Shown in pieces: positions 12,132 through 63,495 of a DNA stretch of 64,000 bases; within the stretch, counting starts at the first letter, position 1, and each line of letters opens with the position of its first letter. Location of the stretch: the NCBI RefSeq assembly GCF_000219625.1, contig NC_018212.1, positions 2,601,281 to 2,665,280 on the forward strand. Reading direction: 5' to 3'. The notes under the pieces are model-generated. The model was not told the DNA's origin. It worked only from the letters and a program-made list of their open reading frames with translations, and did not search any database. Both the position numbers and the translations under genes were made by a program. The stretch comes from Zymoseptoria tritici IPO323 (lineage: Eukaryota > Ascomycota > Dothideomycetes > Mycosphaerellales > Mycosphaerellaceae).

Positions 12132-12156
12132 TTAGGGTTAGCGTTAGGGTTAGGGG
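12132..12156. repeat. Interstitial telomeric tract 1
   Basis: About four TTAGGG-type repeats including one variant (TTAGCG), ending GGGG directly before TTCATTGTACTTG, the end of the adjacent LINE. Orientation is the same as the terminal telomere, marking a former chromosome end. Confidence 0.9.
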
Positions 12157-13212
12157 TTCATTGTACTTGTTTATATAGGCTAGTCTACCTTTGCACCTGA
12201 TCTGAACTAAAGCCCCATCCAAGCCCTTGCTCCCGGCTCTTTTGGCCGTCTTTAGAGGGGAGGAAACAGACCTACGCTCCTACGTAAAGCGCCTCGCGAT
12301 GCACGGCACCGCAGCTACTCCTAGCCTAACTACGTTTTACAGTGTCCTTTTTACTATCTCCCGAGTTAACTAAACCGCTAAAAAGAGAGACTACCGATAG
12401 GCTAGTCCGCATCCTAACGCAAAATATCGCTCCGGCAATCGCTTACTATCGATCGTACCTTAGGTTTCCAAACCTCCTAGGTGACGGACAAGGTGTGCGT
12501 CTCCTCATCCGCCCGAAACTATAACCCCGTCTCGTTAAGGGGGAATATCCCGCTTTAAGACCGTCCGGTAGAGCTCTGTCCTCCCTCCGTCCGGCGTATC
12601 TACTGTCGGAGACATTCGATTCCGATCGAGCCGCTTGCACACTAGTCTACAAGTGCTTCCCGAACGGTTCGGGGAGAGCCGTCTTCCCTTCGGCTAGAAT
12701 TCCTCCTCTAGCGATCGTCGTCGTCTACTCCTCTCCCCTACTACGCCGTCGCCTTCGCTTTCCTCCAAGCCTCCTACTGCTCTCCAGAGGTACTAGTTTT
12801 CTTCCTCCCGCTCCCCGGCTTTAAGAGGAAGCAGCCGTAGATCTAGGGTACATGCCTTACATCTACTGCTAGGCCTTCCGGATAGAGTTAATCGTCTAGT
12901 GCGGAGCTAGTCCGGGCCTCGCTAGTCGCCTACGTCTCCTACGTCGTAGCGCAGCCTTTTAACGTCCTACCGATCGGACGCCTACTTTTATCTCGAGGGA
13001 AGAGACTCCTTTTCGATAGGGTAAACGCCTAATTTATCCTCGAGGGATGATCTCCGCTTTTACGTCCCGGGTCGACGGAGCTACTTTACGTCCTACTTAT
13101 CGGACGGAGCTACTTTACGTCCTACTTATCGGACGGAGCTACTTTACGTCCTACTTATCGGACGGAGCCACTTTACATCCTACTCATCGGACGGAGCCTT
13201 TTAACGTCCTAC
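12157..13212 (-). other. 3' region of the LINE, unit 1
   Basis: Between the ORF2 stop and the telomeric tract. It includes a 29-bp tandem array (13073-13211). In the distal, less mutated copies a 75-codon minus-strand frame and overlapping plus-strand frames are open in this region; both strands being open suggests low stop-codon density rather than a proven gene. Probably the 3' untranslated region. Confidence 0.6.
13073..13211. repeat. 29-bp tandem array in the LINE 3' region, unit 1
   Basis: About five units around GGAGCTACTTTACGTCCTAC with period 29; the unit 2 equivalent is 36289-36455. It lies just downstream of the ORF2 stop, a possible structured recognition element of the RNA (inference). 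Confidence 0.85.
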
Positions 13213-16200
13213 TTAGGACAGTGTGCACTAGGTCTGTGCCGCCGCTTCCTCCGCTTCTTCCTTCGTAGCTTCCTCCTTCGTAATCTTCGTCGAGATTCGC
13301 TCGAGGATCTCGTTAGCTCGCTCCTAGCATCCTATATTTAGAAGGAAGTCTACCTCGGTAAACTTCGTGTTCGTAGTGCCCATTTTCTTATGCATCTTCT
13401 GCTTCGCCCGTCGTTCCTTCCTCGAGAGCCAGCTCGTCCTATTTTCCTAGTAGTAAGTCTCGTATCCTCGGATAAATTTGCTCGTACAGACGTAGAAACT
13501 ATAGGTATAGAAGGTTCTACGCCGATACTAGAGGAAGCGCTTCTAGAAGGACTACGGCGCCTTTAAAAAGTAATCGGCTCCTCGTAAGTCCTGCTTTAGG
13601 CGGCTTTCTTCCGGTATAATCCAGGTTAGGCTCCACTTCTTAGCCTCTTCGGCTATATCTTCCTCTCTCTCCTAGCGTAGGAACCGCTAGATAGAACGGC
13701 GGTCTTCGCTAAGGCTTCGGTCGCGAGGCTAGGACTCGGGTGTCTTACGGTACTTCTCGTAGAGCTTATCCTCCGTTAAGCGCCGGAAGAACGCTTTAGG
13801 TTTCTAGATTAGTAATCCCAACTTCCGTAGCGGACTTTCTTCCGGAGCGTACTTCTTTACGACCTAAAAGCTAGTTTTTAGTGCCTTAAATCGCGAGGGT
13901 AGGGCGGAGATTCCTAGGAGATTACGAGTAAAGTAAGGGTTAGAAGCATAACCCGAGATCTACTTCGTTAGCTTCGTAACGTCCTTAGTCGTCTCGTCCT
14001 AGAACTTAGGAGAGTCCTCGGCAAACGCCGCGAGGAGAGGCGCGCTATACTCGAACATCGGTGCGAGATACTGCTGATAGACTCGCAGGCGATGCGCGAA
14101 GCCCTAACCGTCCGCGTCGAAGGTTAGGAAGTCGCTTCGTTTCCCGGCCTATTCGAGCCGGCTCTTAAGGTGCCTCCTTAAGTCAATCCCTCGCGCCGTT
14201 ATAAGAAATCCGAGGTAGGTATATACCTCTCTCCTCGGTACCTCTGTACTAAAGAGGTAGATCGCCTCCTACGAAGACGCCGGCGCTAGATAGGCGCATT
14301 TTTTAATGTTTAGGGCGATATAGTTAGCGGAGGACTAGCGCTCGAGGATCTGGATTAGTATACGTACCTCGTCTAAGTCGCTAGCGAGGAGAACACTATT
14401 ATCGGCGAAGAACAGCGCACGAGGAATCGGCAGCGCCGCGGGCATTACGTCGGAAGAGCCGGCTAGGGCGAGTATCTTAGGTCGATTTAAGTCCTCGAGC
14501 AAGCTATCGATAAAGATGTTAAATAGATAGGGCGAGAGGGGTAAGCCCTGTAGAACTCCCCTCGTCCGCGGAAACTACTGAGAAGCCATACAATCCGAAA
14601 CGATAAAGGACTAGACGTCGAAAAAGCAGAGGCTCGTAATTAGAGCTAGCATATTCTCCGGACATCTCCGCCGGCGTAGAACGTCTGCGAGTAGTACATG
14701 ATCTACGACGTTAAAGGCGGCTTGAAAATCGAGGAACACGGCGTATATAATCCGGCTCGATTCGAGGAGGGCGTAGACGACCGCGGCGTTCGTTATGGTA
14801 GAGTAGTAACTTCGAAATCCCGCCTAGTTAGGATGTATCCTCGCCTATGTCCTACTATTAAAGCGCTAGAGGAGTAGGCGCTTAAAGACCTTTCGAAACA
14901 TCGTTACTAGCGAGATCGGACGAACGTTATTAGCGTCCTTTGCCGGCATCGTACTATCCTCCCGTCGGGTCTTGTCCTTAACGACTAGACAGACGATAGT
15001 TTCGTTCTAGCTCCGTAGCGTCTTACTATTCCGGAGATAGGAATTGTAGAGGGCGGCTAGGATCCGGAGGAAGCTCGTCGTCGCGAGGGTTTTCATTAGA
15101 CAGATATATACCCTATCGTTTCCGCAGGCCTTCGTAGCATCCTAGTAGGTAAGCTCCTATATTATCTCGTCGATCGAGAAGGAGAGCGAGGCGGATCGAT
15201 CGTCGATAGGAAACATCTCCTATACTAGGAGGGTCGCCGTCGAGACGAATCGACCGGCAAATCCCTCCATTACCTTGTCGATTGCCGTTATCCCTCTTGC
15301 CTTCCCCGCTAGGGTCGGCACTAGCGGTGTATTCTCGTTCGCGCGGCGCTACGCTCTCTTATAGAGACGGACCGTCTTGAGCGTCCCGCTATCGGCATCC
15401 GGATTCGGCTTCGCTATCGCCTTAAGACGCTAGTCCTTCTTCTTCTTACTACGGCGGCGTAGCTGCTTTAGCTTACGAGTAGCGTCGTTATTATCCTCGG
15501 CTCGCTTTCGCTTCGGGTCTGTTATCGCCTTTCGAGGCCCGTCGTTCTTCTCTCTACCTCTATTCTTCTTCTCTCCCTCTCGATCCTTCTTCTCTCCGCC
15601 TTAATCCTTCTTCTCTCCGTCTCTATTCTTCTTCTCTCCGCCTCTATCCTTCTTCTCTCTGTCTCTATTCTTCTTCTCTCCGCCTCCGTTACTTATATCC
15701 TCCGCCTTTCGTCTACCTAGAGGACGATTTCGATAACGCGTAGAGGCGAGTCCTAGCACGGCTTCGCTTACCTACTAGCAGAGCGATACGATTTCCGCAT
15801 TCCGCTTGTCTACATCGGCGCTTATATAGTATAGATGCCGTCGATGCCGCGCCCTTCTCTCCTAGCTATAGTAGAGCGCCTGCGCCGTATCGTCGTCGTT
15901 TAGCTAGCTTATCGTATAGCGTCGAAGTTAATACAGCACGGCTAATCTACCTAGAGTACCTATAGTCGGGTCTAGCTAGAGGTAGAGCTAGTAGACATAG
16001 TCGGTATTTATCTTCTCCGTTAGTCGCGGTAGAGCTAGCGTCGCATACGGCAGCGTCCGGCGGACAAAGCAGTAGTTAGTCGTTAGTTGTTTCTTACATA
16101 CGGCGTCCGCAATCGTAATCGGCTCCTAGATCGGTATTAGATAGGTTATCGCAGAGTCCTCGATCTATTGCGAGACGACCTTCCGTCTCGGAAGCAGCGA

Positions 16201-16700
16201 CGCCTTCCCGCTCTAGAGAGACATCTTACTAAAGCGGACGTTAATATCTCCGAGAACGACATCCGAGCCGGCAACCGCCTCGAGCATAGACCGGACCTCA
16301 TCCGGCTTCTGCTTAGGGGGAAAGTAGACTCCGCTAATCGTTCCCCGGTCCGTTAGTAGGGTTATAGCGTCCGTCCTAATGATCTACGCCTCGCCGGTAA
16401 GCTAACTTCGCGCGCGTACTGTCCCTATTACTAGAATCCTATAGCCTAAGCGACCCTTTCTTAGCACCGTATCGGGCTTTACTGTAGTCGCAATTACGCG
16501 GTAATCCGCTTAGCGCTTCTTATGCTCGACGAACTAGGTCTCGACAATAAAGAGGTAGTCGAGGACGTCGTCGTTAATTAGCGCCGCTAGGATCGGCTAC
16601 CTATTATCCCCTAAGCCCCGGATGTTAATATATCTAATCCTAGCATTCCTCCTAGTCTCGCGACCCGCGAGAGGACTCGCCTCCCCCAGATGCCTCTCGA
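13213..16700 (-). pseudogene. LINE ORF2: AP endonuclease plus reverse transcriptase, RIP-inactivated (unit 1)
   Basis: Minus-strand frame interrupted mainly by TAG/TAA of RIP type. Endonuclease at about 16640-16200: INIRGLGDN (catalytic Asn), LFIVET (catalytic Glu), GVYFPPK, and VVLGDINVRF. Reverse transcriptase at about 14900-14200: GVLQGLPLSPYLFNIFIDSL, then active-site box ALFFADNSVLLA (D to N here), then LNIKKCAYLA and YLGF. A C-terminal domain of about 300 residues with WLSRKERRAKQK and a long charged helix follows, ending in TAA at 13215-13213. No RNase H or CCHC was recognised. The start is uncertain: the frame overlaps the end of ORF1 near 16640-16740. The APE endonuclease places it with L1/Tad-like LINEs rather than REL-endonuclease elements. 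Confidence 0.85.
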
Positions 16701-18298
16701 CTCTCTCTCTTAGAGGATACTCCTCGAGTCTCTCTCTTCGAGCCTAGGCTATCCTCCCGTCCCGCCGGCTCCTCTTCTAGCCCCTGCCGTATTAGCTCGG
16801 CTTTAAACTCGTCGAAGACGCTAGCACTCTTCGCCTTCTACTGTACTACTTGCCTTTTGAATTTGTTATCGGCTTCTCGATAGCGATTAACGAACTCGCG
16901 GACCTAATCCGTAGACGATCTCCTAGGAAGGTTTATAGAGCAGGGTTAGAGTGGTTTCCGCTTACGGTCCGCTAAAGGAGAGGTCGGTTTCGTTCGTAGC
17001 TTCGGCTCTACGGAGAGAATCCGGAAGGTCTTCGCTTTCGGGGAGGGCGTTACTAGTTCGGCACGCGCGGCTAGGTCCGCGATCTACGGCCTCTACCGTC
17101 CCGACGAAGAGAACGGAAAGGGAGTAAGCTCCTTCGCCTTTATAGGAAAGGGCGTGTCCGGAGAGGGTACGAGGGGAGGAGGGACGGATACCGTAGAAAA
17201 GGGCGAGAGAAGGTCGTAGTCCTTACTAGGAAAGAGGTCGTAGGGTTGCACCTTAGGAGGAACACTCTTCCCTCCGCGCTTCTCCTTGATAGAACGGTAC
17301 GGAAGACTCTTCCTCCGCCGTCTCTCCTTAATCGACTCCGCTCGCGCGTCGTTCCGGCTAGGCGGTAGGGCTCCGTTCGTAGCAGGTCTCGATTCCTTCT
17401 AGTGTTCGCTCGCGCCGTCTTTAGGTCTAGGAGGGTCCGGAGGATCTTTACTCGAGTAATAAGGAGGACCTTCGTCCGAGCGATGAGGAGGACCTTCGCC
17501 TAGGGTATATAGGAGGCGGTTAACCGATCGCTTTGTCTCCTTCGCCGCGCGGATTAGGCAGGCCTCGGCGTATTTCTAAAAGAAGGGTATCTATATAATA
17601 GGCTTCGGTATAGGGTCGACTAGAATCGCGGAAGGGTCGGTCTCTAAGACGAGGACGGTAGGGACTATTAAGGGGATGTCGATAGAAGGCAGCCCGGTTA
17701 AAGGGATGTCGGTAGGGAGCCTCGTAGAAGGAATGTCTATAGAAGGAATGTCTGTAGAAGGAAGATTCGTCGACGGAATCTTCGTTAAAGGGATGCTCGT
17801 AGAAGGAAGATCTATAGAGACAATATCTAGGAACACGTCCTCCTTACGCCGGATCGTCTTCCTTAACCGACAATCCGCGGACGCAGTCTTAATCGAAGAC
17901 TCGGACTCGAGTGCTCGCTTTGCTAGCGCGGTTACCGGCTCCTCTAGTCGATCTTTAATCTAGGTAACGAGCTAGGCCGTATCCTTACTACGGTTACGAA
18001 GCTAGTCTAGGATCGTTTGCGCTATAAGCGTAAGTCTCGACCGGCCGATTTCCGCGGTAACGCTCTTAATCTACGCCTTAATAGTACGCCTTTTGTTTGT
18101 ACGACACTTCTTATACTCGAAGGTGCGGTAGTATCGTCCTTCCGTATCGGGATGTCTAGTCTTATTCCTTAGGACGCCAAAGTAGTCGATCTCGCCGCCG
18201 TACGGGATAATGCCCTTATAGAGCTCCCAGAGGGCGTCCGCAAAGGCCGTTAGACCTTCCTAGGGCCGTACTACGCTCGTCGACAGTTTGGATAACAT
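16641..18298 (-). pseudogene. LINE ORF1 (gag-like, unrecognised), unit 1
   Basis: Minus-strand frame different from ORF2, starting at ATG 18298. N-terminal part is compact and basic (IPYGGEIDYFGVLRNK, RYYRTFEYKKCRTNKRR). The middle has a degenerate five-residue-type repeat rich in Pro/Ser/Ile/Asp (about 17840-17590; PSTDIPSIDIPST-like). The C-terminal third is charged (NRYREADNKFKRQ, FDEFKAELIRQGLEEE). I see no zinc knuckle. Position before ORF2 and basic character suggest the RNA-binding ORF1 protein of a LINE, but there is no family match I can name. In-frame stops are nearly all TAG. The unit 2 copy is at 39885-41542. Confidence 0.6.
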
Positions 18299-19330
18299 CC
18301 GAAGGTTAGAGGGCAGAGAGGGCGACGCCGAGGGTAGAGGGGAGGAGGAAGCCACGAGGAACGTCGAGGGAGAGGTCGGCGAAGTAACGAGTTAGGATCG
18401 GTAGTAGGAGGCACTCGAAGGAGAGGGCAACCTAGGTAGAGAGTGCTTATAGATAGTTCGAAGTCTCTACCGTAGAGGAAAACTAAGGCTAAGAGCGTAA
18501 ACGGATAGTAGCGAGGCTCTAGAGAGGAGGGAACACATCCGGCTCTTATAGGGCCGGGGTATAGTCGTCCTTCTTATAATCACGAGTAGGGTTAGCCTTA
18601 CGATCGTCGATAGTTATCGTCGATAGCTATCCTCTTATCTCGCCGTCTACTAGGGTCTATAGCTTAATTAGAATCGTTATACTCGACGAGGTGGTAGTAT
18701 AAAGGGCTACCCTCCCCTCCGTACTTACTCGTCCTACTCGTCGTCTCTTCCTCTACTCCCCGGTCCGAGAATAGGCTATCCCCAGCATCGTTATATCGTC
18801 CTCTCTAGGCATCGTTATATCGTCCTTATCTCGATACTATCCTGTCCTGCTAGGCCTATATCCTCTTCATCCTCCCGTCTTCCTCTCCCTTCGCCTAGCT
18901 CGTCTCCGGTCTCGTCTGTTGCCTTACCGTCTCGCTTTCGAATCTCCTATGTCTACGTCTTCTCCCTCCTCCTCCTCCGCCCTACTCTCGTTAATCTGTT
19001 CTCCCTCGTACCGTTCTCGTACCCGAGCCGTCCTCTATAGGCTGTTAAATCTACGTTAGACTCGCTATCCGTGTATTTTTGCTAACAAGGAGCTCGACGA
19101 CGTAGTGTAGTGCTCTCCCGTCGTAGTAATTCCTGCCTACATTTAGTACTACCCCCTCCTTATCGGGCACCCAGTGGAAAGCGTAACAAAGCTGCACGTA
19201 GTAGCGCTAGCGTCGCAGGCTCTTATATCGTAGGACTTCTATGTCTATAGAGGTTTCTACGGTAGCTGTTCTTAAGCGTCGAGTAGGAGGTATAGGCCGC
19301 TTACGTGTTCGGCTGCTAGGTTAGCTCTCC
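18299..19330. other. Leader between LINE ORF1 and the monomer array, unit 1
   Basis: The frame of ORF1 is nearly open for a further 200-400 nt upstream (Ser/Pro/Leu-rich), so the true start could be earlier. Beyond that I see only CT-rich, RIP-marked DNA; likely the LINE 5' untranslated region. Confidence 0.45.
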
Positions 19331-19587
19331 GCCTATCCTAGCATTAGGCGAGAAATCCGCCTAGCGGCAAGGTGGGCTGGAAATCCGCCTATCCCGGCAT
19401 TAGGCGAGAAATCCGCCTAGCGGCAAGGTAGGCTAGAAATCCACCTATCCCGGCATTAGGCGAGAAATCCGCCTAGCGGCAAGGTAGGCTAGAAATCCAC
19501 CTATCCCGGCATTAGGCGAGAAATCCGCCTAGCGGCAAGGTAGGCTGGAAATCTACCTATCCCGGCATTAGGCGAGAAATCCGCCTA
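19331..19587. repeat. 56-bp monomer array, unit 1 (about 4.6 copies)
   Basis: Period 56 bp. Each unit carries the inverted repeat TAGGCG-(7 nt)-CGCCTA and a further GCCTA block, so it can fold. It lies 1 kb upstream of LINE ORF1. Tandem monomers at LINE 5' ends can act as promoters in other systems (for example mouse L1); here that is inference. Not CRISPR: there are no unique spacers. Unit 2 copy at 42574-42832. Confidence 0.85.
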
Positions 19588-21613
19588 CACCCGTAATCCG
19601 TAGCCGGCCTGCCCTAGCATCGTCTATATCGTAAGAAGGGTAGACTTTAGCTATAGCTCCGGAAAGCGATATAATCCGCGTTTAGGCGGAGGAGGTAGAG
19701 CAGTTCGCAGTGTAGGCTATAGAGGCAATCCTAGCGGAGGAGACGGCGAGGTTATAGTAGAGAGGGAGGAGTCTCAGCGGGAAGTTCAGCGGTGCGCCAA
19801 TTAGTCCTAGCGACCGGACACGGACCCTCCTTAGTTAATTAACTAAGGCGTAGGGCTTAGAGTTTGCGGTCGACTAATTAGAGGAGCCGGACGGGTCTAG
19901 AGCAGGGCTCTTTCGACTAGTGCTCTTGTTAGTGTAGTGGATTTAGTTAGTAGTAGTAGTTAGTACGGTTACCGGTTGGTTTAGTAAGCGATTTATCTGG
20001 TAGTACGAGACATATCCTTTACCGGTAACTAGTAGAAATAGTAGAAACGGCGACGGCGAGGTCTAGAAGTGCAGGCTGTAAGGGCTCGATCTACGGAAGT
20101 AGCAATCAAGCCGAATGCATCGATTTGCGTCCCTCTTATAAGGCTTCGGATCGATAGTATCGTCGCTGCCAAAAAGTCACATTTTGGCCCCTAAATAATA
20201 ACTAAGAATAGCACACTTAGCAGTGGAGTTAGTATAGACCTCGCAATCTCTTAGTAGTAGTAGTAAGGGGCTAATGTCTACTAGTAACTATACGAACAAG
20301 AGCACTGCTTTCGACAACTCGCTAGACCTCGTCTCCTTCGCGCTTCCTCTTAACTATCGAAAATCCTTCTTAAGGGTCTGCCGACTAGTCGGGGCGAACA
20401 GACGAATTCGAGGCTCGTCGTATACTTTTAGAACCCAACTTCTTAACCTTACGACGGGTTCTTTCGAAACTAATACAAGCTCCGAGTGCGGGTTATAACA
20501 AGAAGAATTGTCTGTTTTTAATCTTCGATATCGTATATATTAGATCTTCATTCGCCCGCTAGCAGATTTGGATTGTACGAAATCTACGTCGGAGTCTAGG
20601 AGATAGAGGAGTTCGGAGCGGAGGAGACGGCGAGGTCGTAGTAGAGAGGGAGGAGTCCGGGTAGGACAGTTCAGCAGTACGCTTCTATGTCTACGTAACC
20701 GGACACGGACCTACCTTGGTTAATTAACTAAGACGTAGGGCTCAGAGTTTGCAGTCGACGAATTAGAGGAGCCGGACAGGTCTGGATCGAATCTATACTT
20801 GGATAACTCGCTAGACCTTATCTCCTCCGCGCTTCCTCTTTACTATCCTCTTCCGCAGTAGTACTATGTCTTGCTCGGGTGTTGTTAGTTATAGTCGAAA
20901 CCCGAAAATCCTTCGTAAAGGGTCTGCCGGCAAGTCGGGGTAGTAAGACGAATCCGACGCTTGTCGCATACTTCGAAAACCTTACTTCTAAACCTTGTAA
21001 CGGTTTCTTTCGCAACAAAGACGGGCTCCGAGACTAGGCAATTACGAGAAGAACTGTTTATTAAAAATCTTCTATGTCGTATCTATAAGAGCTTGTTTTA
21101 CCCTCGAGCAGACTCGGATTTAACGAAATCCGCGTCGAGGCGGACGAGACGGAGGAGTTCGCCGTACAGGAGATAGAGGCAATTACCGCGGAGGAGGTCG
21201 TAGAAGGGAGGGAGGAGTCCAGGTAGGACAGTTCAGTAGTGCGCTTCTATGTCTACGTAACCGGGTACGGACCTACCTTAGTTAATTAACTAAGACGTAG
21301 GGCTTAGAGTTTGCGGCCAGCTAATAGGCAGGGGAGGACGTAGCGGCCCTCCCGTCGCGGCCGATTCGTCTACGCGACCGGACACGGACCTACCTTGGTT
21401 AATTAACTAAGACGTAGGGCTTAGAGTTTGCAGTCGACGAATTAGAGGAGCCGGACAGGTCTAGATCGAATCTATACTTGGATAACTCGCTAGACCTCAT
21501 CTCCTCCGCGCTTCCTCTTTACTATCCTCTTCCGCGGCAGTACTATGTCTTGCTCGGGTGTTGTTAGTTATAGTCGAAACCCGAAAATCCTTTATAAAGG
21601 GTCTGCCGGCAAG

Positions 21614-22613
21614 CAGTAAGCTTGTTGTATTGTATCCTTGTTATATTATATTGTATTGTCGTATATACAGCTGTCGTAGATCCTTACCTTAAGGCTAGTG
21701 TATTATATTGTCGTGCTGTACGGCTGGATATAATACAGCTGTATCTAGTAATAGTAGGCATAGTTTTAAGGGCTATGTTTATAGTAGTATATTCGGAGGT
21801 AGTGTTTTTAGAGGTGTATTCGGAGTCTGCGCCGGTGTTGTTGCACTGCATAAACAGAGTCTGCACCTAAGAAGTTAGCTATTAATCCACTACTCTTATA
21901 ACTATTGTAACAACACTATTGCTATTAACATAGCCTTATCTTTAGCCTTAACACCCTCGACAGTAGGCTAGCAACTGCTACTACGCAAGGATCGCACCTC
22001 CGACTATGTTACGCTCTGTAAGAGCAGCGCTGTATTCGACAAGGCCCTTCAGCCGGACTCCTTTAAGATTAAGGGCACTAAATATACTCGTTGTGCGAAC
22101 GCACACTACTATTCGACGCTATTGCTTGGTGGATAGCTCGTCGCCGTTAGTAGCTATGCCTCTCACGAATGGCACTCGACTGCCTTTTAGTCCCCCTCAT
22201 AAGCGATAACCCTAAGCGCTTATTTAGCTCCGGCAGAGATATAATTAACTACCGCCGTTTACAGCTCTATAGCGACATTATCGAGGCTTGTGCGTTCCTT
22301 CGCAGTGCATATGGACCTCTAATTAAGACAACAAGAGCCGGAGTAACAACACTAGCATTTAACGACGACGAGGACATTAAGAAGTCTATAGATAGTCAGA
22401 CAACAAGCTCATTTATGAGCGATACAACAGCCGGCTTTACAACCTTTTGTACTACTTAAGGAGACTTATAAGTAACAGTGGTGGACGATAAGGTCTAAGA
22501 GTGTTGTATATAGTAGATATCCACTGTATGTTGCCAAGATATACGTTATATTATATTGTTACTACCCTTATATACAATACAATCTAATATAACAAGCTTA
22601 CTGCCGGCAAGTC
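21614..22613 (+). mobile_element. hAT-family derivative, exactly 1000 bp, unit 1
   Basis: Ends are inverted repeats beginning CAGTAAGCTTGTT; the flanks are a perfect 8-bp duplication CCGGCAAG (21606-21613 and 22614-22621), the hAT signature. It splits one palindromic module. Inside, the plus strand carries the C-terminal hAT dimerisation segment of a transposase, while the catalytic part is missing, so it is an internally deleted, non-autonomous copy. The unit 2 counterpart is 51664-52663. Confidence 0.9.
22100..22459 (+). pseudogene. hAT transposase C-terminal fragment
   Basis: Frame reads FDAIAWWIARR, then LSRMALDCL, then SDNPKRLFSSGRDI and RLQLYSDIIEACAFLRS. This is the dimerisation domain that ends hAT transposases (AWW...YP.L..MA.D.L..P....P.R.FSS.R). 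One to two TAGs interrupt it upstream of 22169. The upstream RNase-H-like catalytic core is absent from the 1-kb element. Ends at a TAA near 22457. Confidence 0.8.
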
Positions 22614-23077
22614 GGGGCAGTAAGACGAATCCGATGCTCGTCGCATACTTCGAAAACCTCACTTCTAAACCTTGTAATAGTTTCTTTCGCAACAAAGACG
22701 GGCTCCGAGACCGGGCAATTACGAGAAGAACTGTCTATTAAAAATCTTCTATGTCGTATCTATAAGAGCTTGTTTTACCCTCGAGCAGACTTGGATTTAA
22801 CGAAATCTGTGTCGAGGCGGACGAGACGGAGGAGTTCGCCGTACAGGAGATAGAGGCAATTACCGCGGAGGAGGTCGTAGAAGGGAGGGAGGAGTCCGGG
22901 TAGGACAGTTTAGTAGTGCGCTTCTGGGCCTACGTAACCGGGTACGGACCTACCTTAGTTAATTAACTAAGACGTAGGGCTCAGAGTTTGCGGTCGACGA
23001 ATTAGAGGAGCTGGACTAGTCCGGATCAAATCTATACTTGGATAACTCGCTAGACCTCATCTCCTCCGCGCTTCCTC

Positions 23078-23604
23078 TTAACTATCCTGTCCCTCCGTAG
23101 CCCTTCCGCCTACGTCCTCGTCGTTTAGAAAGGTCGAAAACGACGAACCCTAGTCGACGTCGGTTACCGCATCGCTAGGCTGCGATAGGATACTCGGATC
23201 GTACGTCCGCGGCCCGCTGTCCTCGCTGCCCGAGAATTCAAACTACTACGTTAGCGATAGCTCGCGATACCTGCGCATCTCGAGCTATAGGTTCGCTATG
23301 TACGGTTTCGCGGCGGTTCGCGCGCGGTCGTAGTACCTCCACCTCTAGAGTCGCTCGGCCGTCGGCGCAATCTCCGGCCGCACTTGACGGATAAGATAGA
23401 CCTAGGCGACAAAGACGGGAAGCGGGATAGTGTGCTAGATATAGGACAGATCCCTCCCGAGGTCGATAAGGAGCAGGGCGTTAAGGTTTAGAACCCTTAC
23501 GAACCTCCTCTAGCGCCTCCCTACCTTAATTATACGCTTAAAGGCGTTCTATTCCGTCCCTAGGCCCTCCCGCACTACGTCCTCTTTTGTAAAGCCGGCG
23601 GGGA
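23078..23604 (-). pseudogene. ORFX, C-terminal part (split by Gypsy-1), unit 1
   Basis: The reading frame that leaves the other side of Gypsy-1 at 32022 resumes here when the 5-bp duplication is counted once, and runs to TAA at 23080-23078 with only TAG interruptions. Content: PAGFTKEDVVREGL, an aromatic/Arg-rich helical stretch, then an acidic Ser-rich tail (FSGSEDSGPRTYDPS, FLNDEDVGG). Not recognised. See the entry at 32022-34156 for the rest. Confidence 0.65.
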
Positions 23605-23609
23605 GTCTG
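23605..23609. repeat. Gypsy-1 target-site duplication, left (GTCTG)
   Basis: GTCTG at 23605-23609 matches 32022-32026. Confidence 0.9.
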
Positions 23610-23968
23610 TGTTATGTCTCACACTTCCGAAGAGGTATAAGGCACGGGTTGGTGCTCGTCAGTTTAAGGAACAAGTGTTCTTGCAATGGATGCGAGTGAA
23701 GGCGGGAATTCTAATTAGTAAGATTGAACAATAAGTTGTATACGATGTTTAGAAGGAACATCGTTAAGGTCTATATACCTATCGCTGCAAGCGTTGCTCT
23801 CTATGCTCTCCGCGCTCTCTCGGGATTAGGGAGAGCAGAGAGATTAAGCTGCTCTCTTATAATCTCTTACTAAGCAGGAGATTAGAGGGATTACTAAGGA
23901 GAAGGGTCTCTCGTCTAATAAGGCCGAGGGCACCCTAGTTCTCCTGCTATTCGTGCATGCCCGTAACA
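23610..23968 (-). repeat. Gypsy-1 3' LTR, unit 1
   Basis: 359 bp, nearly identical to 31663-32021; differences are mostly C/T or G/A, as RIP would make. Confidence 0.92.
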
Positions 23969-24102
23969 CTATCCCCCTTCTAGACTAGCTTCGTCCCGAA
24001 GCTTTATCTAGTACTACGTTCTTCCTCGTCTGCTTTGTCGTTATTAGAATAACTTCTTGTCCTTTCCCTAACTGCAATCTGTCCGTCTATCTATCCCTAT
24101 CG

Positions 24103-24630: not shown

Positions 24631-24660
24631 TAGTTCGTAATTCTTCCTATTCCGTTAAGG

Positions 24661-43491: not shown

Positions 43492-43496
43492 CTCTT

Positions 43497-49900: not shown

Positions 49901-49968
49901 CGGGTGACCTTTGGAGCTATGTCGGTGGTTTTCGGTACAGTTGTACGGTTGTTTTTGATCGAATCGAA

Positions 49969-53654: not shown

Positions 53655-54152
53655 GTCTATGTTATGTCTCACACTTCCGAAGAGGTATAAGGCACGGGTT
53701 GGTGCTCGTCAGTTTAAGGAACAAGTGTTCTTACAATGGATGCGAGTGAAGGCGGGAATTCTAATTAGTAAGATTGAACAATAAGTTGTATACGATGTTT
53801 AGAAGGAACATCGTTAAGGTCTATATACCTATCGCTGCAAGCGTTGCTCTCTATGCTCTCCGCGCTCTCTCGGGATTAGGGAGAGCAGAGAGATTAAGCT
53901 GCTCTCTTATAATCTCTTACTAAGCAGGAGATTAGAGGGATTACTAAGGAGAAGGGTCTCTCGTCTAATAAGGCCGAGGGCACCCTAGTTCTCCTACTGT
54001 TCGTGCATGCCCGTAACACTATCCCCCTTCTAGACTAGCTTCGTCCCGAAGCTTTATCTAGTACTACGTTCTTCCTCGTCTGCTTTGTCGTTATTAGAAT
54101 AACTTCTTGTCCTTTCCCTAACTGCAATCTGTCCGTCTATCTATCCCTATCG

Positions 54153-54680
54153 GCACACACCCTCCGTCGTCGCAAGAAGGCCGTCTAGATTTTCGAGGAA
54201 GGAGACACTGCGATAAAGGCATGCAGCTCGTACAAAGAGAAGGGCCGAGTTTGTCAGGTACATATCTCGTCGGGTCGGTGTGCGGAGTGCTAGCAGCACA
54301 ATTTAAAAGGTTGTGACGCGAAGGTTACGGAAAGCGAGTAGAAACGCCTTGCTTCTAAGCGAAGCAGGCTTCTTCTTAAGCTGGACGCAGCAAAGGAGGC
54401 GCTAGCTACTGCTTACGCGAAGGAAATGCGTCTTCGCAAGCAACTAGATGCTGTAGATCGAAAGGTCGCCGAAGGTCGTGCTCTAGGGGACCGCGTACTT
54501 GTGGAGGAGTGTTCCGAGGAGCAGCCGGTTCCTAGCGATCCGTCCTCCGATCCGCCTCTTGCCTTGTCTCCTTAGACCTAGAGCGCTATAGGCGGCATAG
54601 AGGACGCCTTCTAGGACGGGCCTCTTCCTTCGTTCCTAGATACAAATAAAATTCCTACTAGAGGAAGTGGTAGTTTATAA
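54153..54680 (+). pseudogene. Antisense ORF of Gypsy-1, unit 2
   Basis: Copy of 24103-24630. Here the codon after the first Cys cluster is CAG (Gln), where unit 1 has TAG, but one Cys of the first CX2C pair is changed to Tyr (TGC to TAC). The two copies therefore complement each other in showing the pre-RIP reading frame. Confidence 0.7.
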
Positions 54681-56232
54681 TAGTTCGTAATTCTTCCTAT
54701 TCCGTTAAGGCAGTTGGTGCAGCTGGTTAACGTGTTTAACTAGCGTCCTAGGTTCGATTCCTAGTCTTAGTGTTCGATGTACTTCTACCTATAGCGTAGT
54801 TAGAAGTATATTACTTTTTGTAGAATTCTTCGAGGAGTTGTCGACAGTTCGAGAGATTCTCTTTTAGCTCCTAGGTATTCTTAGAATCCGGGTATCCTTT
54901 CTATTTAACGAGGTATCGCTAACCTCTCCGTTGTAGGATATTCTCGACTTCGAATTCGTCTTCTTCTTAGACAGCGAAATGAAATGTTTCCTACAAGGGT
55001 GTGTTTAGATCCGCTAGTTCGAGGAGTGATACGTAGAATACTAGGTGAACTTTAGCGTTAGGTAGCAGTTCTAGTCTGTAATTGTTTAGTCCTCGTTTCT
55101 TAGCAATTAAAAATAGTCCGACTTTAACGTAGTCTAATTTCCTAGTCTTTCTTCTAGTTTTCAGATTTTTCGTTAGAAGGTAAGCCTTATCCCCCTCCTT
55201 AAGCTAAGGTGCTATTTTCCGCTTGCTGTTAATAGCCGGGGATATTCTGCGTTGCATCTTAGCAATGCCCTGCTACAGGTACGTATGCAGTTTCTTTAGG
55301 TCTTCCGCTTTGACTAAGGCTCTGTCGGCCTGTGGGTTGTCGCGTGGTATATAGAAGAGGTTTGGGTTCTTTCTAAAATTAGCAAAGAACGGTAAGACCT
55401 TCGTTGTCTCCGACTAGCGGTTGTTTAAAGCTAGTTGTGCTATAGGTAGTAGCGATACCTAGTTATTTTAAGCATGATTTACGTAGTATCTAAGGTATAC
55501 TTCTAGTGATTAGTTCATTCTTTCTGTTTGTCTATCCGTCTTAGGGTAGTATAATGTAGACAGTTTGTGCTTAATTCCGATTGTAGCGACTAAGGTCTTC
55601 TAGTAGTTACTCGTAAAGAGTTTGTCGCGGTCGGTGGTAAATAATAACGGTATTCTATAATATCTAATTAGTCGGTTAAGGACGAGGTGTCCGAGTTGTA
55701 CTACTATTATAGATTCGTTGCACGGAATGAAGTGTGCGTACTTCGTAAGACGATCGATAATAACTAGAATAGAGTCGTATCGTTGTCTATTCGAGGGATC
55801 TGTAGAGGGTAGGAGTTTGACAATAAAGTCTATCGTAACTCCGTCCTATAGCTCCTTTGCTAGTTCCTAGAACTAGATGTGTCCGTATTTTGCATGTCGC
55901 TCTACCTTGTTACGTTAGCAGGTGCTACACTGTTTGACGTACTAATACACTTTCCGTCGCATCTACGGGAAGGTAAAGTGTCGTTAGATTAGTTCCGTTG
56001 TACGCGCAATTCCTAGGTATCTATTCGTTAGTTCGTCGTAGTACCGTCGTATACACTCCGTCTGCTAGTGCTCTAGCACTTGTCGTTTTCCTTGAGCGAT
56101 AGGAAATTCTTCCCTATCGTCGCTCGTGATCCTTAGCATATAGTTAAACTCGAGAACGTTAGCACTAAGGCTGCTATCTGCGTTCTTCTTCAAAATGCTG
56201 TGTTTAAGAGGATCCTTTCCTTCTATATAGTT

Positions 56233-57042
56233 GTTGTTTGTTTGTTTGTTTGTTTGTTCCATTTACGTCCTTTCGGAGTCCAAGACTATATAGGACGGCT
56301 TTGCTATAAAGGCAAAGCAGTAGATCTAGTTACAATTAGATTTTTCGGTATTCTTTAACCTTAGGGGAGACCCCGTGCCTAAGGTAGAATCTGCAAAGCA
56401 GAATCTACCGAAGGACTTTAAAAGCAGCGCAAAACAAAGGAAATCTAACGAGTGTCGTACAGCCGGGGCTGCAGTGTTGCAGCCTAAGGCTACAGAATTT
56501 TCGCGCTAAGCTTTTTGCAGAATTTTCAGCGGATCCTTCCGCTTCGCACGCACGCATGCTACAAATTCGAAACGCAGTGCAAAAGCAGTGCAAAAGCAGA
56601 AGCAGCAGAAGCAGCTGTCCAACTCGCTGCCTTCTCTTATCCTTAATATGCCTTTGTAGAACTATATGCCGCTTCCAAACGTATACAGCTACGCAGGTTG
56701 ATCGCAGAGTTATAGATTCTACTAACTGTTCCAGCTCTTTAAAGTGTTTCGGTTCGGATTTCGAGGAGGTGCGCGTATAGGGCAGAGTAGATTGCTTCTT
56801 CTTCTTCTTCTTCTTCTTCTTGTTTATAGCGTTTGTAGCGTAGAGGGCGTTCGAATCGTGCTATTGTTCTGTAGCTTGTGTTTTAATAGGAGGCGTACCT
56901 CTAGGTCGTGTTGTTGTTGTTGTTGTAAGGGAAGAGGGATCGACGGCCTCTCCAATCCTCCGGAGGAAACTTAGCTCTACAACGACGGTATCGTCGCAGG
57001 TTCGTAGCCGGCACTACGTACAGGTGTTCCTCGTCGCCGACC
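56233..57042 (-). mobile_element. SINE-like element S1, unit 2
   Basis: Copy of 26183-26989 with a 3-bp longer CTT microsatellite; same (CAAA)n tail and flanking duplication. The frame running into the tail shows the duplicated pol codons YIEG on both sides. Confidence 0.75.
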
Positions 57043-58474
57043 CCTTCTATATAGTTACTTCTTCGGCTAAGCGCGTCTGCCCGTCTATTGTCTTTGCCTA
57101 GAGTATATCGGATCTCGAATTTGTATTGTCCGAGGAGCTTAGACCAACGAGTCTGTCGTCGGTTTAAAACCTTAGTAGTCGTAAAGGTAACGAGGTTCTT
57201 GTAGTCCGTAAGGATAATTAGTCTAGGCGCTCCTTCGATATATACTCTCTAGTGCTGTAATGCGGCTACGATAGCAAGTAACTCCTTATTATAGATATCG
57301 TAATTCTGTTCCGCAGGTAATATCTTGCGTAAGTAGTACGCAATTAGATGGCGCTTACTATTTCGCTCTTACGTTATACAGGCTCCGATAGCTATATCTA
57401 ACGCGTCTGTTTCGATTTGGAGTAGCAGGGAAGGGTTATACATTTAGAGTGTTAGTGCTTGCGAACATATGTCCTTTAACAGCTTAAATGCCTTTTTCTG
57501 TCCCGTATCCCATTTAAACGCTTCGTCCTTTCTTATAAGCTTAGTAAGTAGCATCGCGATTTTCGAGTAGTTGGCGATAAACTTTCGGTTGTAGTTTGCC
57601 AAGCCTAAGAAGGATTGTACGTCCTTAACGTTCTGTGGTTAAGGCCATTCCCGGATCGATTCTGTCTTTGCGGGGTCGATGCTGATTCCTTATGTTCCTA
57701 TAATAAAGCCTAGGAACTTAACTTCCTTCTTATAGAACTCGCACTTCTTTAGTGCGGTCTTAAAGTTAGTCCTAGATAGTCGGCGGAAGACTTCTTTAAC
57801 ATCCTTTATGTAATCGGCCAGCGACCCCTTTATAAAGATAAGGATGTCGTCGATGTATGCAATAACGGAGATGTCGAGTAGGTCTTTTAGGGTCTCGTTG
57901 ATTAAGGCCTGGCAGGTTGCCGGCGCATTAGTAAGTCCTATCGGCATAACGAGGTACTCGTAGAGTCCGTATCTCGTTCGTATTACTGTTTTCCATTCTT
58001 CGCCTTTTCTTATCCGGATTCCGTAGAATGCATCCTTAAGATCGATTTTCGTAAACCAATCTGCGCTAACGAGTCGGTCTAGGGACTCGTCAATGTTAGG
58101 CAGAGGGTATCGATTCTTAATTGTAATGTCGTTAAGCTTACGGAAGTCGGCTACCAGCCGCAAGTCGTCGGGGTTTCCTGCTTTTAGAACGAACAGAATT
58201 GGTAATACAGCTAGGGACCTGGACTCGCGTATCTAGCCCTTACTTAGCATCTTCTTTAACTATTCCCGGAGCGCTTTTAATTCTTTCTCGGATAGCGCGT
58301 AGATAGGTCCCTATAGAGGCTCCTTTCCTGGTTAAAGTTCGATTGTGTGGTCCTATAGTTCGTATATAGGTAAGGCTTCGAGCCCTTCCTCTTCCTAAAA
58401 GAGGCGCTTCTATTCGTTATACTCTTTAGGGATCTTAAGTAGGGCGTTACTTCTACTTTTGCCTATGACCTTGT

Positions 58475-59336
58475 TTTGTTTGTTTGTTTATTTGTTTGTT
58501 CCATTTACGTCCTTTCGGAGTCTAAGACTATATAGGACGGCTTTGCTATAAAGGTAAAGCAGTAGATCTAGTTACAATTAGATTTTTCGGTATTCTTTGA
58601 CCTTAGGGGAGACCCCGTGCCTAAGGCAATGCTAAAGGACTTTAAACAAATTCGAGACAAAGGAAATCAAACGAGTATTGCAGCCCAAGGCTGCATGCAG
58701 CCTAAGGCTGCAGAATTTTCGCGCTAAGCTTTGCAGAATTTTCAGCGGATCCTTCCGCTTCGCACGCACGCTACAAATTCGAAATGCAGTGCAAAAGTAG
58801 TGCAAAATGCTGTGCAAAAGCAGTGCAAAATGCCGTACAAAAGCAGTGCAAAAGCAGTGCAAAATGCCGTACAAAAGTAGTACAAAAGCAGCTATCTAAC
58901 TCGCTACCTTCTCTTATCCTTAATATGCCTTTGTAGAACTGTATGCCGCTTCCAAACGTATACAGCTACGCAGGTTAATCGCAGAGTTGTGGATTCTACC
59001 GAGTTCCAGCTCTTTAAAGTGCATGTATGCTTCCTTTCGAGGGCGACGACGTCTCTAGGGACATACGATTTCGATTCGGATTTCGAGAAGGTGCGCGTAT
59101 AGGATAGAGTGGACTACTTCTTCTTGTTCGTAGCGTAGAGGGCTGTTCGTTCGAATCGTGCTATTGTTCTATAGCTTGTGTTTTAATAGGAGGTGTGCCT
59201 CCAGGTCGTATTGTTTTTGTAAGGGAAGAGGGATCGACGGCCTCTCCAATCCTCCGGAGGAAACTTAGCTCTACGACGACGATGTCGTCGTAGGTTCGTA
59301 GCCGGCACCACGTACAGGTGTTCCTCGTCGCCGGCC
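58475..59336 (-). mobile_element. SINE-like element S2, unit 2
   Basis: Copy of 28422-29283. The 13-bp duplication differs between sides only by RIP-type changes (CCTATGACCTTGT, CCTGTAACCTTGT). Confidence 0.78.
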
Positions 59337-62074
59337 CCTGTAACCTTGTAACCCGGCTTGCCTGTACTAGTGTCTGTCCGAGTTAGAACACCTCTCGTAT
59401 TTCCTGTCGATTAGGACTACGTTGTAGCGCCAAATTCCCTAATCTTATCTACCGTCGAACGCTGTCGGCGCGTAGGCCGAATGTCGATAACGCAATCGCA
59501 TTCCGTAAATTTAAGTACTCCTATTATCTAGTTTACTACTGGGTTATGCTTTCTTAACTAAGGTATACCTAGAACGATGTCGTGACTAGCTATGTCGACG
59601 ATATCTAGGACAACTTCCTCGTAGTGCCGTTAGAGAGCTAGTAGTATCGGTATTGTCTCTCGATCTACATTAGGTAGGGGTAATCTATCGACTACGATTA
59701 ATTCATACCCTTCCTTCTTACGTCGGGTTGCGATCCTCGTACGCGTGACGAACGACTAGGACGCAAAGTTTCTACTTACGCCTGAGTCGATCATAGCACT
59801 TGTCTTGTGCCCGTTGACAATAACTTATGTACGGAGGACTGCTGTTAATGCTTAGACATTTGTTGCGACATTAAACTCCCTTCGGTCGTCCGTTCCTAGA
59901 GAGTCGATCCTTTTCCCGACTAGTGTTAGTTCAGCCAGTCGTTAATGATCTTCTTATGTTTTCTAGCGGAGTCGTTTATTTCCTTTTCTTGTCGTGTTTT
60001 AATAACTGCTCGAGGTTGCTAGCAGATCTAAAACTATCGGTATAATTCTTTTGTAGAGTGAACTAATTCTCGCATTCGTCTTATAACTACATCGCCGCAT
60101 AGCGTAATGTATCTGTGTAGAGTAAAGGTAGATCCGATTAGGGGACATTCTTACACGATCGCATAGAAGTCGTTTTAAGGTTCTAGTTATAGGCGGCTCC
60201 AAACTACTCGTCGCATCTGGTTAAGCATGCGATCGAAGTTCTCGGCGTAGAGTAGTCTTTGCCCTTCTTCCTTAGGGAATATTTCTTCACTCTTCCTAGT
60301 TAACAAGAGTACTAGTTCGGCTAGGGGCTAAGGTGCATCCATGCTGAATTCCAGTAGCATGTTCTCGTTCTCGCCTAGTTCGTCTAATTCGTCGTCGCTA
60401 GAGCTAGAGCTCTTAGATTCCTCGATCTCCTCGGGAATCCTATCTATAGGAGGCACGTTTTCCTTGTCCTCGTATAGCTCTATTTCTTCCTCGCTCGATT
60501 CTGCTACTTCTTAGTTTAGGCAGTCGATTTGGCGGAGGTGTTGCTCCTATACTGGTCCTTAGGCGGTGTCGTAGGTGTAGGGGAATTCCTCCTAATGCTT
60601 ACACTATCCGGCGCGACACTTATCTTTCTAATGTTCGCTGCAGTCTCGGTCTTAGCAGTTGTCCTAACGAAGGGCACCGCACCCCGAGTCTGCACGTAGG
60701 ACTATTCTAAAGGTTCGTCTTTCCTTTGGCTATATCGTGTTAAACTGTCGTCGTAATACTATGTTCCTCTAGCGACAGTCCCTTGCTATATGTCCTTTGT
60801 TACTACAGGCGTAGCAAGTTAGTCCTTCCTGCTTTCTTCCGTTGTTCCGTCCTCCCTGCTTCTTCTAAGCGAAGCGTCGTCCTTTAGTCGTAACATCCAG
60901 TTCTATTAGCATTAGTCTATAGGGGTCGCTGTAGCGAGGCTTCCCTTAGTTAGCGAACTGGTTTCGTCCGAAGCGAGCCTTGTCGTTATTATAGGTCTTA
61001 AAGGTCCCTCCTAGGTTTCCTCTAAACCTCTTGCCCTAGTAGAGTTCGTATAGCTAATTATCTAAATAGATAGATGCTTAAATTAGGCTATCGAGAGAGC
61101 TGGCATCTCTACCGTAGCGCATAAGCTCTGCCTTAACTAAGTCTTTCAACCCTTCTTTGAACGTATCTATTAAGGACTTGTCGTTCTATCCCGTAATGAC
61201 AGAGTATTCCTTGAACTTAGCAGCATACTCGGCGGCCGAAGTTTTCTGTCTTATTCCTCTAATAACTCGAATGGCGGTGTTCTGTTCGTTAGAGATTCCG
61301 AACAGCTTCTTAACTTCTTTCTTAAATACTATGTAATTCTTAAACATTCCGATATCGTCGACCTTACGTATGCTGTCGAGGTAGCTGCGGAGGTAAGGCT
61401 TCATCTAGTGCTAGGCACGTCTACGGAGGAAGGTAGCAGCGAACAGAGTGTACTGCTTACACTCCAACTTCTCGTTAAACATAAGATATATATCTATCTG
61501 GTTAAGCTAGTTGTCGAGTTTGTCCCGGTCTCTATAGTAGAAGTCCGGCTTAGCAACTTTGAAGTTAATCTCGGCATCGTTGTCGTTGTCTTCGTTATTA
61601 GAGGTAATTATCGGGTCGGGTTTGTTAGACGGTAGGGAGCGGATCCTTCCGGCTTTACTAGGCGCGGGTATGCCCCGAACACTTAAGGAACTTATCCTTT
61701 AAGGGTGTACAAAGTTGTTATGTCTCACACTTCCGAAGAGGTATAAGGCACGGGTTAGTGCTCGTCAGTTTAAGGAACAAGTGTTCTTACAATAGATGCG
61801 AGTAAAGGCGGGAATTCTAATTAGTAAGATTAAACAATAAGTTGTATACGATGTTCAGAAGGAACATCGTTAAGGTCTATATACCTATTACTGCAAGCGT
61901 TGCTCTCTATACTCTCCGCGCTCTCTCGGGATTAGGGAGAGCAGAGAGATTAAGCTGCTCTCTTATAATCTCTTACTAAGCGGGAGATCAGAGGGATTAC
62001 TAAGGAGAAGGGTCTCTCGTCTAATAAGGCCGAGGGCACCCTGGTTCTCCTACTGTTCGTACATGCCCGTAACA

Positions 62075-62184: not shown

Positions 62185-62218
62185 TTAGGGTTTAGGGTTT
62201 TAGGGTTAGGGTTAGGGG
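62185..62218. repeat. Interstitial telomeric tract 3
   Basis: TTAGGG, TTTAGGG and TTTTAGGG variants then TTAGGG units, ending GGGG before the next LINE 3' end. Confidence 0.9.
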
Positions 62219-63080
62219 TTCATTGTACTTGTTTATATAGGCTAGTCTACCTTTGCACCTGATCTGAACTGAAGCCCCATCCAAGCCCTTGCTCCCGGCT
62301 CTTTTGGCCGTCTTCAGAGGGGAGGAAACAGACCCACGCTCCTACGTAAAGCGCCTCGCGATGCACGGCACCGCAGCTACTCCCAGCCCAACCACGTTTT
62401 ACGGTGTCCTTTTTATTATCTCCCGAGTTGACCAAACCGCCAAAAAGAGAGACTACCGATGGGCTAGTCTGCATCCTAACGCAAAATATCGCTCCGGCAA
62501 TCGCTTACCGTCCATCGTACCTTGGTTTTCCAAACCTCCCAGGTAACGGACGAGGTGTGCGTCTCCTCATCCGCCCGAAACTGTAACCCCGTCTCGTTAA
62601 GGGGGAACATCCCGCTTCAAGACCGTCCGGTGGAGCTCTGTCCTCCCTCCGTCCGGCGTATCCACTATCGGAGACATTCAATTCCGATCGAGCCGCTTGC
62701 ACACCAGTCCACAAGTGCTTCCCGAACGGTTTGGGGAGAGCCGTCTTCCCTTCGGCCAGAATTCCTCCTCTAGCGATCGTCGTCGTCCACTCCTCTCCCC
62801 CACCACGCTGTCGCCTTCGCATTCCTCCAAGCCTCCCACTGCTCTACAGAGGTACCAGTTTTCTTCCTCCCGCTCCCCGGCTTTGAGAGGAAGCAGCCGC
62901 AGATCTAGGGTACACGCCTCACATCCACCGCTGGGCCTTCCGGATAGAGTTGATCGTCCGGTACGGAGCCAGTCCGGGCCTCGCCAGTCGCCCACGTCTC
63001 CCACGTCGCAGCGCAGCCTTTTAACGTCCTACCGATCGGACGCCCACTTTCATCTCGAGGGAAGAGACTCCTTTTCGATA
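62219..63080 (-). mobile_element. 5'-truncated LINE copy 3 (862 bp)
   Basis: Only the 3' end of the LINE, colinear with 12157-13020 and 35372 onward. It stops at TTTTCGATAGGG, where telomeric repeats take over. Truncation is at the 5' end and distal, as expected for an incomplete reverse transcript on a chromosome end. Little RIP. Confidence 0.85.
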
Positions 63081-63137
63081 GGGTTTAGGGTTAGGGTTTG
63101 GGTTATAGGGTTTGGGTTATAGGGTTAGGGTTAGGGG
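63081..63137. repeat. Interstitial telomeric tract 4, with variants
   Basis: Mixed TTTAGGG, TTAGGG, TTTGGG and TTATAGGG repeats, then canonical repeats ending GGGG. Confidence 0.9.
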
Positions 63138-63153
63138 TTCATTGTACTTGTTT
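63138..63153 (-). mobile_element. Minimal LINE copy 4 (13-16 nt)
   Basis: TTCATTGTACTTGTTT, the extreme 3' end of the LINE, between two telomeric tracts. The last bases are shared with TTTAGGG, so its exact end is ambiguous. Confidence 0.75.
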
Positions 63154-63176
63154 AGGGTTAGGGTTAGGGTTAGGGG
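63151..63176. repeat. Interstitial telomeric tract 5
   Basis: Four TTAGGG-type units ending GGGG before LINE copy 5. Confidence 0.9.
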
Positions 63177-63495
63177 TTCATTGTACTTGTTTATATAGGC
63201 TAGTCTACCTTTGCACCTGATCTGAACTGAAGCCCCATCCAAGCCCTTGCTCCCGGCTCTTTTGGCCGTCTTCAGAGGGGAGGAAACAGACCCACGCTCC
63301 CACGTAAAGCGCCTCGCGATGCACGGCACCGCAGCTACTCCCAGCCCAACCACGTTTTACGGTGTCCTTTTCACCATCTCCCGAGTTGACCAAACCGCCA
63401 AAAAGAGAGACCACCGATGGGCTAATCCGCATCCCAACGCAAAATATCGCTCCGGCAATCGCTCACCGTCCATCGTACCTTGGGTTTCCAAACCT
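63177..63495 (-). mobile_element. 5'-truncated LINE copy 5 (319 bp)
   Basis: Matches the first 319 bp of the other 3' ends up to TTTCCAAACCT, then diverges. The least RIP-mutated copy in the window (for example GACCACCGATGGG where proximal copies have GACTACCGATAGG or GACTACCGATGGG). Confidence 0.85.

Follow-up and report, generated by a model that had tools for sequence, protein, structure and literature searches.

A telomere-associated LINE with a predicted APE endonuclease in Zymoseptoria tritici

The stretch of DNA analysed here (the window) is 64,000 nucleotides long and forms the right end of contig C7 of Zymoseptoria tritici IPO323 (C7:2601281-2665280). It contains five 3' ends of a long interspersed nuclear element (LINE), each directly behind a tract of TTAGGG telomeric repeats. 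The question raised by this locus is whether the LINE is tied to chromosome ends throughout the genome (39,686,251 bases searched, 21 contigs) and, if so, how its copies came to be there. The telomere-linked pattern is real and genome-wide. The copies were probably laid down on chromosome ends as end-primed cDNA which was then capped by a telomere, with break-induced duplication adding to their number.

The 3' end of the LINE, TTCATTGTACTTG, has exact matches at 12157, 35372, 62219, 63138 and 63177, all on the plus strand; there are no others in the window with up to two mismatches (shuffled-sequence mean 0.66). TTAGGGTTAGGGG is found directly before all five, and TTAGGGTTAGGG occurs 32 times in the window (shuffled mean 0.04). 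These positions, and the telomeric tract before each, are as a previous sequence-only reading of the window had given them. The five ends are not five independent events: positions 12139-32133 and 35354-62186 are one duplication of about 20 kb (~98% identity), the left border of which lies inside a TTAGGG tract, and this accounts for the two long copies.

LINE copy 1 (12157-20255, minus strand) follows the tract TTAGGGTTAGCGTTAGGGTTAGGGG (12132-12156, plus strand). The part from 12157 to 19587 aligns to a near-intact copy on chromosome 9; sequence to the right of 19587 is partly common to copies on other chromosomes, and the 5' boundary is not fixed. LINE copy 2 (35372-43499, minus strand) lies within the duplication and has 98% identity to copy 1; its tract, TAGGGTTAGGGTTAGGGG (35354-35371, plus strand), adjoins non-telomeric DNA. 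Both long copies are strongly mutated by repeat-induced point mutation (RIP). At 62186-62218 (plus strand) there is a breakpoint with a tract which is degenerate and then canonical; the counterpart of the flank is unbroken at 32133. A 5'-truncated LINE of 866 nt (62219-63084, minus strand) follows and runs straight into telomere-like repeats. This variant-rich tract (TTTAGGG, TTTGGG, TATAGGG; 63081-63137, plus strand) separates two LINE 3' ends, the second of which is only a stub of 15-16 nt (63138-63153, minus strand) followed by telomeric repeats. Four TTAGGG units plus a G (63152-63176, plus strand) precede the last copy, which is 5'-truncated, 319 nt long and little affected by RIP (63177-63495, minus strand). 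It is followed by a palindrome-containing segment and by the terminal telomere of the contig, (TTAGGG)n (63857-64000, plus strand).

Distribution and orientation of the LINE

A 16-mer from the 3' end of the LINE, TTCATTGTACTTGTTT, has 85 matches in the genome with up to two mismatches. Of these, 71 are subtelomeric (63 exact and 8 near). The other 14 are interior near matches which look like chance, and they were left out of the counts; TTAGGG is absent from both of the two that were inspected, although a control with the reversed pattern gave fewer matches (6). None of the 71 subtelomeric sites lies further than 86 kb from a contig end, and together they occupy 33 of the 42 contig ends. GGGTTAGGGG precedes every one of them and TTAGGGTTAGGGG precedes 67. 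Tabulated across the genome, the 3' flank is telomeric in 71 of 71 cases and non-telomeric in none, and all 71 share one orientation relative to the telomere, with the 3' end facing the centromere.

With a probe from the reverse transcriptase (RT) domain, which is independent of the 3' end, 53 matches to the family were obtained, at 61-100% identity; every one is subtelomeric and none has the opposite orientation. Chromosome-end association thus holds for both probes. Another 24 weak matches are to other LINEs of Z. tritici, the RTs of which are 26-33% identical to that of this LINE; 21 of these lie over 86 kb away from the nearest end, on both strands. Of 111 candidates, 80 were scored with the RT probe, and its counts are lower bounds; interior relics that have lost the 3' end and fall below detection lie outside the reach of both probes.

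ORF2 and the class of the element

The LINE is at least 7.4 kb long and has two open reading frames (ORFs): ORF1, and ORF2 with an apurinic/apyrimidinic-type (APE) endonuclease, an RT and a CCHC motif. Sequence common to the copies reaches ~8.5-8.7 kb from the 3' end, which is the limit of the analysed DNA in several of them. Remains of ORF2 are present on the minus strand in copy 1 (13282-16791; endonuclease, RT and CCHC; 85% identity to protein P0001 by tblastn) and in copy 2 (36475-40035; 86% identity). The endonuclease motifs that had been read from the letters are in both long copies, also on the minus strand: INIRGL (16612-16629 and 39856-39873), ISGVYFPP (16315-16338 and 39559-39582) and VLGDIN (16240-16257 and 39484-39501). 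The FADD box of the RT is intact in copy 2 only (37642-37653, minus strand).

Both domains of the proposed APE-type LINE are thus predicted. The putative APE/EEP endonuclease is N-terminal; in an alignment of 73 proteins its catalytic residues (N, E, Y, D, N, D, H) are 98-100% conserved, and a homolog has a fold that agrees with those of the L1 and TRAS1 (1wdu) endonucleases. It may cut telomeric DNA or it may serve something else. The RT is of the non-LTR type (non-long terminal repeat; RVT_1, 3.1e-28), and its best matches among solved structures are R2 and L1 ORF2p; human telomerase is at rank 25, in a comparison which contained no Penelope protein. The CCHC motif is at residues 1100-1113 of P0001. 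In that protein it is not followed by RHD or RHN; the C-terminal signature of the restriction-enzyme-like (REL) endonuclease is a CCHC with RHD or RHN behind it and R/KPD or RAD further on (motif as given in the available part of PMC12857005). The element lacks a 3' poly(A) tail: in all 71 of 71 copies its end adjoins CCCCTAACCC with nothing in between.

The closest intact relative, P0003 (57% identity in the RT region), is recorded as a protein of the plant Escallonia rubra, but it may come from a fungus that contaminated the sample or lived in the plant as an endophyte. A protein search for reference sequences gave no named LINE. A scan of viral contigs for relatives with DNA context gave none. 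A scan of genome contigs gave 28 loci, in records titled as bacterial, with RTs 23-42% identical; these are not of this LINE family.

Tracts, junctions and arrival at chromosome ends

Grouped by their proximal junctions, the 71 sites give 69 classes. In all 69 the LINE adjoins a perfect TTAGGG run of 9-24 nt (median 18), which is at least 15 nt long in 53. Run lengths peak at 12, 17-18 and 23-24 nt; 21 classes have 21-24 nt and none has more than 24. There is one extra G at the junction in 66 classes and two in the other 3. Variant telomere-like repeats (TTTAGGG, TAGGG, TTTGGG, TATAGGG) of at least 5 nt are found further inward in 24 of the 69 classes; with these counted, the tract is 12-58 nt long (median 23). 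Terminal telomeres have perfect TTAGGG runs of 77-166 nt at 21 ends (22 of the 42 ends were examined), and several open with full TTAGGG or variant repeats. The right end of contig C21 has no telomere, in agreement with the one published as missing. At five ends of small contigs (both of C17, both of C20 and the left one of C18) a common GGCGCGCGCGTAAGCGCGCGGCGG segment leads into TGAGGG repeats and then TTAGGG; the same segment precedes a LINE tract on C4.

Because the runs beside the LINE do not exceed 24 nt, against 77-166 nt at chromosome ends, a random slice of mature telomere is unlikely to be the source of the tracts. Insertion of the LINE at a random position in a mature telomere was rejected on the same figures.

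A homolog of the proximal flank was found for 36 of the 71 sites (316 kb compared). By the script criterion all 36 have an unbroken version, some of which are LINE or tandem-repeat copies; that for C4:7587 runs into TGAGGG repeats. In the window, the junction at 62186 reads GGGAGCTT followed by AGGGTTTAGGG, and the unbroken version at 32133 reads GGGAGCTT followed by CTTGTAG. Distal sequence to the chromosome end was available for 18 sites; 7 lacked an unbroken homolog, 11 were tested and two trivial matches were set aside (one to the telomere itself, the other a LINE stub continuing into LINE). The interrupted sequence does not resume distally at any of the nine informative sites. The lost continuation has microhomology to the tract, with a mean of 2.2 nt against 0.7 nt in mismatched pairs (permutation P 5e-5; 28 of the 69 classes testable).

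At its other end the LINE runs directly into telomere-like repeats in 24 of the 71 copies, with 23 distinct 5' truncation points; many of the remaining copies are seen in part only, their 5' ends being outside the analysed sequence. Nine of the 24 adjoin the terminal telomere. The shortest are stubs of 15 and 25 nt, too short to be explained by homologous capture of a LINE. Two further joints are of another kind. Near 19627 on C9 a LINE remnant of 13-16 nt (not counted as a stub), and near 2267 at the left end of C7 a LINE cut ~1.4 kb from its 3' end, are each joined to another element with a (TTTG)n end; these are possibly due to ordinary insertion and later breakage.

Read along its G-rich strand, the tract passes into sequence complementary to the LINE RNA. 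Reverse transcription primed by the G-strand would fit the orientation, the exact 3' joint, the variable 5' truncation and the capping, and we regard arrival at chromosome ends by this route as probable. The primer would be the 3' hydroxyl of a chromosome end, G-rich or broken, and reverse transcription would start at the 3' end of the RNA; the end of the cDNA would become the new chromosome end and be capped by telomerase, and later copies would join onto the capped LINE end. LINE-bearing ends would also spread by break-induced replication across tracts. The duplication in the window starts inside a TTAGGG tract; this suggests that a LINE-bearing end was copied, via the tract, by an end that had broken. 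The sequence-only reading had offered two primers. A chromosome-end 3' hydroxyl agrees with the orientation, which fits a G-strand 3' end; a nick at a random site in a telomere fits poorly with perfect runs of at most four repeats. Its wider claim, that the LINE targets or extends telomeres, is supported for the association with chromosome ends but not for telomere maintenance; 21 ends have ordinary TTAGGG runs of 77-166 nt.

A CCCUAA tail on the LINE RNA may have been the template for the repeats of the tract, or telomerase may have supplied them beforehand. The limit of four perfect repeats speaks for a fixed-length template, although it could also be due to the loss of longer, fragile tracts, as reported for the fungal element MoTeR. 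Tentatively, a tail with at most four CCCUAA units, acquired by read-through of the donor tract, might act as a telomerase-like template and allow the RT to heal any free end. The RT would then write two to four TTAGGG units followed by the LINE, even on broken ends free of telomere. This would account for the 24-nt limit and the peaks at 12, 17-18 and 23-24 nt, as well as for the microhomology and for tracts directly on non-telomeric DNA.

Several points weigh against end-primed arrival. Pure end-priming needs no APE endonuclease, yet the endonuclease is conserved. Telomerase healing before the arrival of a LINE could produce both the microhomology and the boundary between flank and TTAGGG; breakage inside a LINE could produce the truncation points, and some copies are segmental duplicates. 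A gradient of RIP would be expected if copies near the end were younger. The gradient is weak (Spearman 0.26, P 0.034, 65 copies; for copies of at least 450 nt, Spearman 0.18, P 0.20, 54 copies) and was not used as support. RIP is 3.1% within 5 kb of the end (n=10) and 5.7% elsewhere (n=55; P 0.03), but this is confounded by copy length. Among 12 tandem pairs, RIP in the distal copy is lower in 6, higher in 4 and equal in 2.

Telomerase could instead have come first, placing two to four repeats on broken ends, with LINE-bearing ends captured mainly by break-induced replication and retrotransposition being rare and old. The 20-kb duplication with its left border in a tract agrees with this, as do the terminal telomeres that begin with full TTAGGG or variant repeats and the shared subtelomeres already described (PMC4522978, in part). 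We consider it doubtful as the principal route, as it sits badly with 23 distinct truncation points and stubs of 15-25 nt. The 69 junction classes among 71 sites also count against it, although break-induced replication can create new junctions.

It also seems rather unlikely that the endonuclease nicks the G-strand of the telomere and inserts the LINE there, as in TRAS/SART or MoTeR, with longer internal tracts later lost by breakage. Conservation of the APE endonuclease and the match of a homolog's fold to the TRAS1 endonuclease speak for such a nick, and internal MoTeR tracts of at least three repeats often break, according to the portion available of PMC7367193. However, the limit is sharp, with all 69 classes at or below 24 nt and 21 of them at 21-24 nt. 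In MoTeR, instability sets in at three repeats, yet the perfect runs here are at least 15 nt long in 53 of the 69 classes. Even with variant repeats the tracts reach only 58 nt, still shorter than terminal telomeres.

Published descriptions, surroundings and meaning

The sequence-only reading held that such an element is not well described. This is not borne out in that form: its distribution, orientation and TTAGGG tracts were published for the IPO323 genome in 2014 (PMC4522978). In the available text of that account, Dhillon et al. describe 'family 4' of Z. tritici (M. graminicola) as 34 full-length and 49 truncated elements, found in subtelomeres only. All of the full-length elements and 38 of the truncated ones carry one to three TTAGGG units 3'-terminally; the 3' end is always away from the telomere, there are 13 tandem cases, and internal tandem repeats are present. 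Full length was given as 3.4-3.5 kb, and the family was interpreted as an endonuclease-lacking telomeric Penelope-like element. Family 4 is very likely this LINE; the match is one of description (a non-LTR element of subtelomeres only, 3' TTAGGG, orientation, tandem truncated copies, internal tandem repeats), sequences not having been compared. In contrast to the published unit, this LINE is at least 7.4 kb long and has an APE endonuclease. Measured from the 3' end at 12157, the endonuclease motifs (16240-16629) lie at ~4.1-4.5 kb, beyond 3.4-3.5 kb; repetitive matches near that point may have set the published boundary. The distribution was therefore already known, while the tract and junction statistics are new within the literature searched. 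No account of an APE-type telomere LINE in fungi was found in that literature, which was open-licence only; one may exist elsewhere. The same partial sources include a second description, the 'L1 LINE-like RIL2' of Schotanus et al. 2015, in 34 of 42 Z. tritici subtelomeres (PMC4589918). This resembles the 33 of 42 contig ends found here, by counts only.

The label given in 2014 is very improbable. Telomeric Penelope-like elements have telomeric repeats at the 3' end and a fixed orientation, and this LINE has both in 71 of 71 cases; but they are endonuclease-free (or have GIY-YIG), whereas the APE-like domain of ORF2 is conserved throughout this family, and the closest solved structures are those of L1 and R2. 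The published class is contradicted by the predicted APE endonuclease and should be corrected. An assembly artefact or chance is most improbable, given the shuffles, the 71 of 71 sites genome-wide and a finished genome with an independent published description.

HeT-A and TART of Drosophila sit on chromosome ends and, like this LINE, have the 3' end pointing inward, but the host of this LINE has ordinary TTAGGG telomeres and its junctions are without oligo(A). TRAS and SART of silkworm have a poly(A) tail, which this LINE does not; the orientation of TRAS resembles its own. TRAS1 and SART1 are also APE-type, with two ORFs and telomere repeats as their site (PMC4700185, in part). Telomerase is barely detectable in silkworm according to the same source, whereas the terminal tracts of Z. 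tritici are ordinary and the host is a fungus. FoTeR, MoTeR and Cnl1 are likewise fungal telomere non-LTR elements, Cnl1 being placed with the other two (PMC12857005, PMC7367193, both in part). MoTeR has its 5' ends nearest the chromosome end (PMC7367193), FoTeR has short 3' telomeric tracts (3.0-8.0 copies in its Table 3; PMC12857005), and tandem repeats toward the 5' side occur in this group (PMC12857005, PMC7367193). However, all three have a REL endonuclease and group with CRE/SLACS (PMC12857005), whereas the endonuclease of this LINE is N-terminal and of APE type.

Other repeats make up much of the surroundings. An LTR retrotransposon at 43497-50297 (329-bp LTRs, 5-bp duplication CTCTT; RVT_1, Tf2-1 SH3 and chromo domains) splits the second copy of the duplication and arrived after it. 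Another is present in both copies, at 23610-32021 and 53660-62074 (359-bp LTRs, duplication GTCTG in the first copy); it holds other repeats, including (TTTG)n at 26187 and 56237, and an RVT_1 ORF lies within its second copy (57690-58232, minus strand). An AT-rich tandem repeat (11384-12133, offset ~174 bp) is directly proximal to LINE copy 1. The palindrome-containing segment (63496-63856) adjoins the terminal telomere; its final 30 nt are seen again at the left end of C16 and its start recurs behind a truncated LINE on C20. Ahead of the repeats there are host-like genes for a cytochrome P450 (2162-3301, plus strand), a short-chain dehydrogenase (4493-5614, minus strand) and an alpha/beta hydrolase (5800-6909, minus strand). 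The window contains no tRNAs and no Rfam families at gathering scores.

Fungal telomere non-LTR elements in the literature searched, as far as the available texts go, either have a REL endonuclease (MoTeR, FoTeR, Cnl1) or are described as lacking an endonuclease. If the present assignment is true, attachment to telomeres would have arisen in fungi with a second type of enzyme, in parallel to TRAS/SART of silkworm. Z. tritici telomeres are 128 +/- 20 bp long, and 51 interstitial TTAGGG tracts of at least three units have been published (PMC4589918, in part); 38 of the junction classes have at least 18 nt, a comparison of counts only. The LINE may be the source of many of these interstitial tracts, and the sharp limit of the perfect tract makes it testable whether a LINE RT templates telomere repeats itself.

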